Source: Alphaproteobacteria bacterium (GTDB taxonomy: Bacteria; Pseudomonadota; Alphaproteobacteria; Rhizobiales; Hyphomicrobiaceae). From it: a stretch of 64,000 bases of DNA. The stretch covers positions 1 to 64,000 of the forward strand of contig JAHJSN010000035.1 in assembly GCA_018830445.1 (NCBI GenBank). The letters are read 5' to 3'. Under the pieces are notes generated by a model that was not told the DNA's origin, did no database searches, and was given only the letters and a program-made list of their open reading frames with translations. Both the position numbers and the translations under genes were made by a program. Position 1 is the first letter of the stretch; every line of letters starts with the position of its first letter. Of the stretch, positions 41,848-46,980 are shown piece by piece.

Positions 41848-42900
41848 ATGGATCAACCGAATTTCTTCGATTGTGAGGGACGTTTTACCCTCCAGGAGTT
41901 GGCTGTCGTAACGTGTTCAGAGGTCCCTGCGGAATTTGCCAGCCTCGCTGGCTTGCGGGAGATTTTCAACGTACGTCCGCTCAATGAAGCCGGCGGCAGC
42001 GATCTGTCTTTTTTCGACAACCGGAAATATCTGGCACAACTCGAATCGACCAGTGCCGGCGCCTGCTTGCTGCACAGTGCGTTTGCCGACCGGGTGCCTG
42101 CTGGCACCGTTCCGCTTTTGACGCCGAAGCCATATCGGGCATTCGCACTTGCATTGGCCAAATTCTATCCGCAGGCCAAGTGGCCGACAGTCGCGGAGGC
42201 GGGCGGGCCTGTCGGTGTGGATCCGACAGCGCAACTGGAAGAAGGCGTGGTGGTTGAGACCGGCGCCATCGTCGGACCGGAGGCCCAGATCGGTTCGGGC
42301 AGCAGGATCGCAGCTGGTGCCGTCATCGGGCGGCGGGTGAGGATCGGGCGGAACTGCTATGTGGGGGCATTGGCGTCGCTGCAGCATACGCTGATCGGTG
42401 ACCGGGTCATCATTCACGCCGGCGCGCGCCTCGGGCAGGATGGATTTGGCTTTGCGATGGACCGGGAAGGGCATTTGAAGGTGCCGCAGATTGGCCGGGT
42501 CGTCGTGCAGAACGATGTCGAAATCGGGGCTAATTCAACGATCGACCGGGGCGCTCTGAAGGATACGATCATCGGTGAGGGGACCAAAATTGATAATCTT
42601 GTGCAGATAGGGCACAACGTGATTATCGGTCGGCACTGCGTTATCGTTGCCCATACGGGTATTTCCGGATCCACGCAACTCGGTGATTTCGTCGTGATGG
42701 GTGGGCAGTCCGGAACGGTCGGTCATATCAATATCGGGACAGGCGCGCAGGTGGCAGGCGCGTCACATCCGAAGGAGGACGTTCCTGCTGGGGCCCGGGT
42801 CGGTGGTACGCCGGCGCGGCCGCTGAAGCAATGGGGGCGCGAGCTTGCCATTCTGGCGAAACTCTCCAGATCCGGTGGCGATGGCGGCGCCAAAGGTTAA
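41848..42900 (+). CDS. lpxD: UDP-3-O-acylglucosamine N-acyltransferase
   Basis: It adds the second 3-hydroxyacyl chain in lipid A synthesis. The 350-residue protein has an N-terminal uridine-binding domain ('LSFFDNRKYLAQLEST') and a left-handed beta-helix of hexapeptide repeats ('VGPEAQIGSGSRIAAGAVIG', 'DNLVQIGHNVIIGRHCVIVAHTGISGSTQLG'), with the catalytic His in 'QIGHNV'. It starts the lpxD-fabZ-lpxA-lpxI-lpxB cluster. Confidence 0.96.
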   Translation: MDQPNFFDCEGRFTLQELAVVTCSEVPAEFASLAGLREIFNVRPLNEAGGSDLSFFDNRKYLAQLESTSAGACLLHSAFADRVPAGTVPLLTPKPYRAFALALAKFYPQAKWPTVAEAGGPVGVDPTAQLEEGVVVETGAIVGPEAQIGSGSRIAAGAVIGRRVRIGRNCYVGALASLQHTLIGDRVIIHAGARLGQDGFGFAMDREGHLKVPQIGRVVVQNDVEIGANSTIDRGALKDTIIGEGTKIDNLVQIGHNVIIGRHCVIVAHTGISGSTQLGDFVVMGGQSGTVGHINIGTGAQVAGASHPKEDVPAGARVGGTPARPLKQWGRELAILAKLSRSGGDGGAKG

Positions 42901-43017: not shown

Positions 43018-43515
43018 ATGGACGATGTGAGTAGCAAATCCGAACTGGGAAGGGCGGATATCGTGCGAGTGATGAAGCTTCTGCCGCACCGCTATCCGTT
43101 CCTGCTGGTCGATGGCATCGACGAAATGGATGGCGACAACAGTGCGATCGGGCGCAAGAACGTCACCATAAACGAGCCGTTCTTCCAGGGGCATTTTCCG
43201 CAATATCCGGTGATGCCGGGCGTGCTCATCATCGAGGGCCTTGCGCAGACGGCGGGAGCGTTGTGCGTGCACAGTATCGGTGAGGACTACAAGGCGGAAC
43301 TCGTCTATTTCATGGGGATCGACAAGGCGAAGTTCCGGCGGCCTGTCGTTCCCGGCGATGTCTTGCACTATCACGTCAAGAAGATCCGTAACCGTGGACG
43401 GGTTTGGAAGTTCTACGGTGAGGCGAAAGTGAACGGTCAAGTCGCGGCGGAAGCGGAAATCAGCGCGATGCTGGCCGACACGGCGGAAGCACGGGCATTT
43501 GCGAGCAGTAAGTAA
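43018..43515 (+). CDS. fabZ: 3-hydroxyacyl-[acyl-carrier-protein] dehydratase FabZ
   Basis: The 165-residue hot-dog-fold dehydratase has '[14 protein letters not shown]', '[28 protein letters not shown]' with catalytic His59 and Glu73. It dehydrates 3-hydroxyacyl-ACP, competing with lpxA and lpxD for the same substrates, which fits its placement between them. It overlaps lpxA by one base (TAATG). Confidence 0.96.
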
Positions 43516-44321
43516 TGGCTGACGAACAGATCCACGCCTCGGCGATCATCGAGGACGGAGCGCAGATCGGCGATGGGGTCAAAATAGGCCCCTATTGTCT
43601 TGTGGGCCCCGAGGTGATGCTTGGGGAGGGCGTGGAACTCGTTTCGCACGTCGTGGTGGCGGGACGCACGTCAATAGGCGAGCGCTCGAGGGTGTTCCCG
43701 TTCGCTTCGCTGGGGCACCAGCCGCAGGATCTCAAATACAAGGGCGAACCGTCGACGTTGAAGATCGGCACGGACTGCCTGATCCGCGAAGGCGTGACGA
43801 TGAATCCGGGAACCGTAGGCGGCGGGATGGCAACCACCGTGGGCAATCATTGTGCGTTCCTGGCGAATTCGCATGTGGGGCACGACTGCCGGGTCGGCAA
43901 GAACGTCATCTTTTCCAACAATGTCATGCTGGCCGGTCATTGCGAGGTCGGCGACTTTGCGATCATTGGCGGCGGAGCGGCGGTCATTCAGTACGCCCGG
44001 GTCGGGCCGCATTCCTTCGTCGGCGGAATGTCGGGTCTCGAAAACGATCTCATTCCTTACGGGATGGCGATTGGAAATCGCGCCTATCTATCGGGGCTGA
44101 ATATCATCGGCCTGCAACGGCGCGGATTTTCGCGAGATGAAATCCACGACCTGCGGCGGGCCTATCGCCTGCTGTTCGCCGCAGAAGGTACGCTACAGGA
44201 GCGTCTCGAAGATATTGCCGATGAGTTCAAGGATCACGTGACGGTTCAGGAAATCATCGGATTCATCCGCAGCGGTGGAAAACGGTCGTTGTGCACGCCG
44301 CGCGGCCAGAACGCGGGCTGA
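43515..44321 (+). CDS. lpxA: Acyl-ACP--UDP-N-acetylglucosamine O-acyltransferase
   Basis: First committed step of lipid A synthesis. The 268-residue left-handed beta-helix protein has 'HASAIIEDGAQIGDGVKIGPYCLVGPEV', 'FASLGHQPQDLKYKGEPSTLKIGT', 'NHCAFLANSHVGHDCRVGKNVIFSNNVMLAGHCEVGDFAIIGGGAAVIQ' (catalytic His in 'HVGHDC') and the C-terminal helical 'NIIGLQRRGFSRDEIHDLRRAYRLLF'. Translationally coupled to fabZ through TAATG. Confidence 0.97.
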   Translation: MADEQIHASAIIEDGAQIGDGVKIGPYCLVGPEVMLGEGVELVSHVVVAGRTSIGERSRVFPFASLGHQPQDLKYKGEPSTLKIGTDCLIREGVTMNPGTVGGGMATTVGNHCAFLANSHVGHDCRVGKNVIFSNNVMLAGHCEVGDFAIIGGGAAVIQYARVGPHSFVGGMSGLENDLIPYGMAIGNRAYLSGLNIIGLQRRGFSRDEIHDLRRAYRLLFAAEGTLQERLEDIADEFKDHVTVQEIIGFIRSGGKRSLCTPRGQNAG

Positions 44322-44386: not shown

Positions 44387-45709
44387 ATGCACAGGCCCTC
44401 TGCGAGACGGATCGGGATTCTGGCCGGCGGCGGGCGGTTGCCGATCGAGATTGCCGAGGGCCTCAAGGCGCGCGGCATCGAGGTGCATATCTCCGCCATC
44501 GAGGGTGAGGCCGATCCCGCCCTGGCGGCTTTCAATCCGGAAGTATTCAATTGGGGCAAGATCGGCGGTATCGTAGCGTCGTTCAAGAAGGCAGGTTGCC
44601 AGCAGGTGGCGATTGCGGGAAGTTCAAGCCGGCCGGATTTATCTTCCATCAAGCCAGATCTTGGGTTTTTCCGCGCGTTGCCGACCGTCCTGCGGTTGAT
44701 CCGCGCCGGCGGTGACGACGCCATTTTGCGCGGCGTGATCGGCTTTTTCGAAAAACACGGGCTGGAGATCGTCGGCGTCAACAAGGTTGCGCCGCAGTTG
44801 CTGGTCGGCGAGGGGTGTTTCGCGGGTCCACCCCATGACGCGAGAGACATTGCGGACATTCAATTGGGCCTCAAGCTTGTCAGAACGCTGGCGCCATTCG
44901 ATGTGGGGCAGGCGGTGGTGGTCGTGGATCGACGGATCGAAGCAATCGAGGGAGCCGAAGGCACCGACCGAATGTTGGACCGCTTGACGAGCGTGCGGCA
45001 TGCGAAGATGCGTGCGCGTCAGCCAGTGGGGCGCGGAATTCTCGTCAAGGCGCCGAAGCCGGGGCAGGAACTGCGTGTCGATATGCCGGCGATCGGGCCG
45101 GAGACGGTGCGCAAGGCGGCAGGCGCGGACCTGAAAGGGATTGCCGTTGAAGCCGGCAGGGCGCTGGCGATCGATCGCGGCGCGCTTCAGGAAATGGCTG
45201 CGACGCATCGAATTTTCGTTTCGGGGGTTAAAAGCGAGCCCACCGGTGGTGGTGAAGCTGGTTGTTCGATCGCCCCGGCCAAAGGCGCTTCCAGCGATCA
45301 CTATATGGTGCGACGGCTGGGCCGGTACAGGTTGCGGGCCGCCGACGTCACCGATGCCGCGAAGGGAGCCGCGCTGATCGAAGCGCTCGCGATGTTCGAC
45401 ACGGCGTGCGCAGTCGTCGTTTCGCGACGGCATGTCCTGGCTGTCGAAGCCGGCGAAGGGGCCGTCGAGACAATCGACAGGGCGGCCCAGCTGAGGCAAT
45501 GGGGAGGGGGAAGCGTGTTTCGATCGCGCAAGGGTGTGGCTGTTCTGGCCGCGGGGCGCGACGTGAACGCGGAGATCCTTGCAAAGGCTTCGGCGGCGGG
45601 GCTGGCAGGCGTGGCTTTCGTGCTGCAGAAGTTTTCCGCAGGCGTCGGTGAGGACGTTGTGGCGGCAGCCGACAGGCATAAGTTGTTCATTGCGACGGTG
45701 GCGGGGTAG
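44387..45709 (+). CDS. lpxI: UDP-2,3-diacylglucosamine pyrophosphatase LpxI with duplicated C-terminal domain
   Basis: LpxI hydrolyses UDP-2,3-diacylglucosamine in alphaproteobacteria. The N-terminal domain ('RIGILAGGGRLPIEIAEGLKARG') and catalytic domain ('DIADIQLGLKLVRTLAPFDVGQAVVVVDRRIEAIEG', then 'VKAPKPGQELRVDMPAIGPETV' with the likely catalytic Asp) end near residue 281, where LpxI usually stops. Residues about 316-440 repeat the second domain ('FDTACAVVVSRRHVLAVEAGEGAVETIDR', 'RKGVAVLAAG', 'AAGLAGVAFVLQ') but lack the DMP motif ('RDVNAEIL'). ATG 44387 is preferred over a GTG upstream that overlaps lpxA. The ribosome-binding site is weak. Confidence 0.93.
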   Translation: MHRPSARRIGILAGGGRLPIEIAEGLKARGIEVHISAIEGEADPALAAFNPEVFNWGKIGGIVASFKKAGCQQVAIAGSSSRPDLSSIKPDLGFFRALPTVLRLIRAGGDDAILRGVIGFFEKHGLEIVGVNKVAPQLLVGEGCFAGPPHDARDIADIQLGLKLVRTLAPFDVGQAVVVVDRRIEAIEGAEGTDRMLDRLTSVRHAKMRARQPVGRGILVKAPKPGQELRVDMPAIGPETVRKAAGADLKGIAVEAGRALAIDRGALQEMAATHRIFVSGVKSEPTGGGEAGCSIAPAKGASSDHYMVRRLGRYRLRAADVTDAAKGAALIEALAMFDTACAVVVSRRHVLAVEAGEGAVETIDRAAQLRQWGGGSVFRSRKGVAVLAAGRDVNAEILAKASAAGLAGVAFVLQKFSAGVGEDVVAAADRHKLFIATVAG

Positions 45710-45714
45710 GCGGG

Positions 45715-46980
45715 ATGGCTGGTGCGCATAAAGAAGTCCGTCGATCAGGTTCTGCGCTTGAAGGCGGGAGGGCCATGCCCGGGCAACGCGAACGGGTCGT
45801 TGTCGATGCCAACAGCCGCAACTACAGGATCTTTATCGTGGCCGGCGAGCACTCCGGGGATGTGCTCGGCGGAAAGCTGATGGAGGTGCTCAATCGAAGA
45901 CTGCATGGGCGGGTCCGCTATCTTGGTGTCGGCGGTGAGAACATGTCGCGCCAGGGACTGGTGTCGCAGTTTCCTCTCGAGGACGTAGCGGTGATGGGGC
46001 CGCTGTCGATCCTGCCGCGGTTGCCGCGTCTGGTGCGACGCGTGTATCAGACGGTGGCCGCCGGTTTGAGTGCCGAGCCTGATGCCGTTGTCATCATCGA
46101 CAGCCCGGAATTCACCCACCCAATCGCCAAGCGCATCAAAAGGCGGCTGCCCTATGTTCCGGTGATCGACTATGTGTCGCCATCGGTTTGGGCGTGGCGG
46201 CCGGGGCGCGCCAGGAAGATGGCGCGTTACGTCGATCATCTGATGGCGCTATTGCCGTTCGAACCCGAGGCGCATCGTCGTCTCGGAGGGCCGCCGACGA
46301 CCTACGTCGGGCACCCGCTGATCGAGCAGGTCGAGTGGTTGGAGCAACTCGATCAAAGCGAGCTTGCAGAGCGTCTCAACCTCGATCCGGAGTTACCCGT
46401 CCTGGTGGTGCTGCCAGGTAGCCGTTCATCGGAGGTGAGCCGTCTGATGCAGCCGTTCGGGCAGGCGGTACAGCTGCTGGTGGAGCGGGGTGTTGGGCCG
46501 CAGGTCATCATCCCGGTTGTCGACAGCGTCCGCGGGCTTGTCGAGACGGGACTTGCCGGATGGCCGGTGAAACCGCATCTGGTGTCCGGCGACGAGGACA
46601 AGTTCAAGGCTTTCAAATTGGCGCGCGCGGCGCTGGCGGCATCGGGTACGGTGGCGCTTGAATTGGCGCTTGCCGGAACGCCCATGGTTGTGGCGTATCG
46701 GGTGGATGGTCTTGCCGCGCAGCTGCGCTTTCTGGTGAGGGTCCACTCCGTCGTGCTGCCGAACCTGATACTGGGTGAGAATGCGTTTCCGGAGTATCTC
46801 CAGGAAGCGTGCGCGCCTGGGCAGCTCGCTGATGCGCTCGAACTGCTCATCAAGGATACGCCAGAGCGAACGGAGCAGCTTGCCGCGTTGGCGCGGGTTC
46901 CCGGAAAGATGCTGCTCGAAGGCCAGACGCCGAGTGAGGCTGCGGCCGATGTCGTCATCGCAGTGCTGGAAGAAGGCTAA
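45715..46980 (+). CDS. lpxB: Lipid-A-disaccharide synthase
   Basis: The GT19 enzyme joins UDP-diacylglucosamine and lipid X. The 421-residue protein has 'YRIFIVAGEHSGDVLGGKLMEVL', 'GVGGENMSRQGLVSQFPLEDVAVMG', 'IDSPEFTHPIAKRI', 'YVSPSVWAWRPGRARKMARYVDHLMALLPFEP', 'LPGSRSSEVSRL' and 'SGTVALELALAGTPMVVAYRVD'. It starts 5 bp after lpxI; a later in-frame ATG at 45775 is a possible alternative start. A 27-bp inverted repeat follows the stop. Confidence 0.96.
   Translation: MAGAHKEVRRSGSALEGGRAMPGQRERVVVDANSRNYRIFIVAGEHSGDVLGGKLMEVLNRRLHGRVRYLGVGGENMSRQGLVSQFPLEDVAVMGPLSILPRLPRLVRRVYQTVAAGLSAEPDAVVIIDSPEFTHPIAKRIKRRLPYVPVIDYVSPSVWAWRPGRARKMARYVDHLMALLPFEPEAHRRLGGPPTTYVGHPLIEQVEWLEQLDQSELAERLNLDPELPVLVVLPGSRSSEVSRLMQPFGQAVQLLVERGVGPQVIIPVVDSVRGLVETGLAGWPVKPHLVSGDEDKFKAFKLARAALAASGTVALELALAGTPMVVAYRVDGLAAQLRFLVRVHSVVLPNLILGENAFPEYLQEACAPGQLADALELLIKDTPERTEQLAALARVPGKMLLEGQTPSEAAADVVIAVLEEG

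Follow-up and report, generated by a model that had tools for sequence, protein, structure and literature searches.

The lpxI gene in the window analyzed here, a 64,000-nucleotide stretch of DNA from a Hyphomicrobiaceae bacterium related to Filomicrobium, encodes a UDP-2,3-diacylglucosamine pyrophosphatase in which the N-terminal domain (N) and the catalytic C-terminal domain (C1) are followed, within the same chain, by a second C-terminal domain (C2) that lacks all known catalytic residues (Table 1). This N-C1-C2 architecture is a trait of the family Hyphomicrobiaceae and amounts to a known enzyme with its domains arranged in a new way rather than to a new kind of system; a search of open-licence full texts for a tandem or duplicated LpxI yielded no description of one. 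Because the C2 sequences form a single clade, fit an ancient duplication, are under purifying selection, and carry a conserved signature of their own, C2 is, judging from sequence comparisons, a retained pseudoenzyme domain and not a product of decay.

Table 1. The lpxI locus and the parts of the encoded protein (positions in the window)
Feature	Residues	Positions	Strand	Evidence or remark
lpxD		41848..42900	+	TIGR01853
fabZ		43018..43515	+	TIGR01750
lpxA, directly upstream of lpxI		43515..44321	+	TIGR01852, 342 bits
lpxI, UDP-2,3-diacylglucosamine pyrophosphatase	440 aa	44387..45709	+	Architecture N-C1-C2
LpxI_N	8-138	44408..44800	+	PF17930, E 9.5e-33
C1, first and catalytic LpxI_C	142-278	44810..45220	+	PF06230, 129.6 bits; column mapping
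Acidic linker, fast-evolving, low-confidence	about 283-304	45233..45298	+	pLDDT, identity, length
C2, second LpxI_C without known catalytic residue	305-440	45299..45706	+	PF06230, 45.7 bits; profile; model
C2 signature strand RRHVLAVEAGE	347-357	45425..45457	+	Strong conservation in 27 C2 sequences and A3
C2 signature LRQWG	369-373	45491..45505	+	W372 invariant
lpxB, starts 5 bases downstream of lpxI		45715..46980	+	TIGR00215, 233 bits

The gene is present as a single copy in the genome, within the ordinary alphaproteobacterial arrangement bamA, lpxD, fabZ, lpxA, lpxI, lpxB, and the ATG at 44387 yields an N terminus that aligns with those of related proteins. Both the domain content, with LpxI_N followed by LpxI_C at 113.4 and 129.6 bits (Pfam; cut-offs of 25), and the gene context, between lpxA and lpxB in a genome devoid of an LpxH above the cut-off, identify the product as LpxI, the only UDP-DAGn hydrolase recognized in this genome. 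The LpxH model matches a metallophosphatase (G000:C161:5798-6481, L061) only weakly, at 53 bits against a cut-off of 190; because a similarly weak match occurs in Caulobacter, this protein is probably LpxH2-like. The 440-residue LpxI falls short of the NCBIfam equivalog model NF047836 (222.8 versus 400 bits), as does the single-domain LpxI of another genome, G032 (253.8 bits); the Caulobacter LpxI scores 484.8 bits. The model is narrow, and because its cut-off serves automatic naming and does not define the enzyme, failing it is no sign against LpxI identity; names assigned on this basis will miss LpxIs such as these two.

The original prediction of a tandem second LpxI_C domain was confirmed by profile matching, alignment, and modeling of C2. 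PF06230 matches the protein twice, and the opposite outcome, a tail with no profile similarity to the LpxI C domain, was looked for and not found: residues 282-440 scanned alone score 45.7 bits (E = 7.5e-12; cut-off of 25). The two copies share 31% identity over 97 columns in a BLASTP alignment (E = 4e-8), and their Smith-Waterman score of 111 was attained in none of 2000 shuffles (mean, 33.4; maximum, 60; z = 14). A profile built from 27 C2 domains matches both solved LpxI structures along the entire C domain at E values near 1e-17 (1.3e-17 for 4ggm); a partial match of this profile to a PHP phosphoesterase (3e0f, E = 1e-4) was judged spurious. The start of C2 lies nearer residue 305 than 316, with the first strand at residues 307-310 in the structural model. 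The expectation of a normal LpxI length of about 280 residues agrees with the other LpxIs of the order: in 40 genomes, the single-domain proteins, drawn from about 38 families, end 1-29 residues after the first C domain. The linker between C1 and C2 is only 6-30% identical between the most distant pairs and varies in length from 15 to 50 residues, counted between the last residue of C1 and the first C2 helix, with the short forms limiting how far apart the two domains can lie.

In the Caulobacter crescentus LpxI, the residues binding the pyrophosphate and ribose or participating in catalysis are Q169, T187, D188, K214, and D225 (PMC6286764). Column mapping shows that C1 retains all five (Q175, T193, D194, K221, and D232), whereas C2 retains none, the equivalents being C341, A359, V360, L387, and a deletion at D225. 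Across 28 C2 domains, these positions are conserved in 0-7% of the sequences (T187, 0%; D188, 4%; K214, 0%), compared with 100% in C1. Among the 77 positions at which 41 single-domain LpxIs have a majority residue, 28 are kept by both copies, 35 by C1 alone, including the five catalytic ones, 6 by C2 alone, and 8 by neither. The VDMPAIG block, which the second copy had been reported to lack, is indeed absent, along with the equivalents of Q175, T193, D194, and K221, and the Pfam, column-mapping, and structural comparisons support the view of this copy as degenerate and catalytically dead. C1 presumably provides the active site. Together with the N domain, it would still hydrolyze UDP-2,3-diacylglucosamine (UDP-DAGn), releasing lipid X and UMP, at the step that follows LpxA/LpxD and precedes LpxB.

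The full-chain AlphaFold model, built from 18 related sequences, has a pLDDT of 85.8 and a pTM of 0.85; pLDDT is close to or above 90 over most of C2 and below 50 at the N terminus, in the linker (residues 287-303), and in the loop 373-378. The N and C1 domains of the model superimpose on the closed, substrate-bound LpxI D225A (4j6e; TM of 0.86 by target length, rmsd of 2.7) but not on the lipid X-bound form (4ggm; rmsd of 13.9). For a model of C2 alone (pLDDT of 89.1), 4ggm and 4j6e were the sole matches at E ≤ 0.001 (TMq of 0.74), followed by weak matches to the PurH and cytidine-deaminase folds. Given that a pTM of 0.85 would be hard to reach with a freely floating C2, the model, based on these 18 sequences, indirectly suggests that C2 is packed in a defined position on the N-C1 body. 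Thus, the protein resembles the Caulobacter LpxI (4ggm, 4j6e; PF17930 plus PF06230) in its N and C1 domains with all catalytic and substrate residues, in the closed-form fold (TM of 0.86), and in the gene order lpxA-lpxI-lpxB, but differs from this homodimeric enzyme of about 280 residues with one C domain in carrying a second, catalytically empty C domain in the same chain.

The window belongs to Hyphomicrobiaceae, the named hits being Filomicrobium insigne, Filomicrobium sp., Hyphomicrobium zavarzinii, and Hyphomicrobium sp. The C2 profile matches 97 of 103 other Hyphomicrobiaceae genomes searched, covering all 25 genera. Nearly all of these matches display two C-domain hits, in one frame where inspected. 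The recurrence of the architecture in independent genomes of 25 genera speaks against an assembly or frameshift artefact, and the single open frame in every complete case inspected against two separate genes. Three family members with a single C-domain match were explained otherwise, two by genes cut at contig ends and the third by a frameshifted C1 beside an intact C2. Among the intact LpxIs of the family that were inspected, C2 was found in every one except that of G032 (L110), the only genome assigned to Hyphomicrobiaceae found with an intact single-domain LpxI. This protein, encoded beside lpxB, truly has a single C domain, and its sequence clusters not with its own family but with another of the order (f31), suggesting that the gene was replaced, that the lineage is basal, or that the genome is misassigned. 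No verified tandem LpxI was seen in about 680 LpxI_C-bearing genomes sampled outside Hyphomicrobiaceae from the order, class, and phylum; two LpxI_C matches were present in four of these, corresponding to separate genes or fragments in three and to a broken frame in the fourth. Scanning with PF06230 alone overlooks C2 in part of the family, with one match despite long frames in 3 of 13 members, and hence the absence of C2 outside the family was also judged by protein length.

In phylogenetic trees, the C2 sequences form one clade (support of 100/99), as do the N+C1 parts of the C2-bearing LpxIs (95/94). A tree uniting C1 and C2 in one clade is not rejected (p-AU of 0.47), and with broader sampling, which included 40 family-spread LpxIs, the joined tree scored 38 log units above the free quick search (p of 0.875). 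The simplest reading of these sequence data is that the C domain was duplicated once, within the gene, in the ancestor of the family. Alternatively, another family's LRQWG-type LpxI could have supplied C2 through a fusion, which would be compatible with any of the functions considered here; the first tree indeed places C2 closer to the LRQWG-type single-domain LpxIs than to C1 (90/88). However, this proximity is not significant (p-AU of 0.468), can be mimicked by shared retention of LRQWG, and runs counter to the 38 log units gained by the joined tree under broader sampling, so that we regard fusion as rather improbable.

Besides the invariant W372, C2 strongly conserves R347, H349, E354, R365, R370-Q371, G373, R381, and G383. 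In closer gene pairs, dN/dS is 0.04-0.35 for C2 versus 0.10-0.31 for C1 (saturation of dS makes the ratio uninformative in more distant pairs), indicative of purifying selection on C2. Single-domain LpxIs from several families share the R/HVL/LRQWG/R residues of C2, suggesting that these residues serve the structure of the fold itself. The occurrence of an LRQWG-kind WG motif in 9 of the 41 family-spread single-domain LpxIs weakens a clean partition in which C2 would keep what C1 lost and marks LRQWG as a lineage feature, not a universal one. The single-domain LpxIs of the order fall into two apparent types, one with (H/Y)VLAVEAAEGTD plus LRQWG and the other with RIVAIEGAEGTD and without LRQWG (L029, L058/L119, L144, L145, and relatives).

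With regard to the role of C2, we tentatively favor, at a probability of about 0.4-0.45, a fixed in-chain structural partner, possibly substituting for a subunit of the LpxI homodimer. The Caulobacter LpxI is a two-fold dimer, the function of which is unclear (PMC6286764). The substitution is proposed because that enzyme is dimeric, its two domains open and close, and here a neighbor of the same fold is fixed in the chain. In this scenario, the C domain would have been duplicated in the Hyphomicrobiaceae ancestor, and the second copy would have lost catalysis but been retained owing to its fixed packing against the N-C1 body; it would stand in, within the chain, for the second subunit and hold or bias the cycle in which the two catalytic domains open and close. 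C2 is absent from G032 and from all other families, which weighs against this reading in that C2 is dispensable for LpxI chemistry as such. More specifically, the protein may be a pseudo-heterodimer within a single chain, with catalysis left to one C domain and its dead twin providing the dimer interface and governing active-site closure, although this fuller version is more doubtful. Of the roles suggested originally, namely, regulation, stabilization, and binding of another lipid, stabilization or in-chain partnership fits best. Lipid binding is the weakest, because it is the N domain that holds most of the lipid in the Caulobacter LpxI (PMC6286764), and this domain has no second copy here. 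A silent in-chain LpxI_C copy throughout a family amounts to a natural experiment on the purpose of a second C domain, and perhaps of the dimer.

Other functions appear less probable than structural partnership. The conserved polar and aromatic residues of C2 (R, H, E, Q, and W), unrelated to the catalytic set, and the position of lpxI wedged between lpxA and lpxB are what one might expect if C2 were a docking or scaffolding module that ties LpxI to LpxA, LpxD, LpxB, or the membrane and hands on the insoluble product; yet the presence of R/HVL/LRQWG/R in single-domain LpxIs points to a role intrinsic to the fold, and we consider docking unlikely. Dead enzyme domains often become sensors, and the weak resemblance of C2 to the nucleotide-binding deaminase/AICAR-transformylase fold would suit a regulatory domain derived from the catalytic one and binding a nucleotide, lipid X, or another metabolite. 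The residues that hold the ribose and pyrophosphate are, however, gone from nearly all C2 sequences, and the lipid is bound mostly by the unduplicated N domain, making such a sensor quite improbable. Finally, a slowly decaying, neutral leftover of the duplication, as the faster evolution of C2 than C1 in several lineages and its high divergence in some might indicate, is very improbable in view of its persistence across 25 genera, where no clear loss is seen, the invariance of W and near-invariance of R, G, and further residues, a dN/dS well below 1, and a confidently predicted fold.

LpxI_C resembles the cytidine-deaminase and AICAR-transformylase folds. PurH (ATIC), which combines IMP cyclohydrolase and AICAR transformylase and contains two deaminase-like repeats in one chain and thereby offers a precedent for a fold of this type occurring twice in a protein, was the third-ranked fold match (1zcz, 7mgq; E = 1.1e-10 for the full model and 0.022 for C2 alone). 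The chemistry differs and there is no close superposition (TM of 0.35 for the full model), such that the likeness is one of layout and not of membership: in PurH, the two repeats follow an N-terminal domain, the same order as in N-C1-C2.
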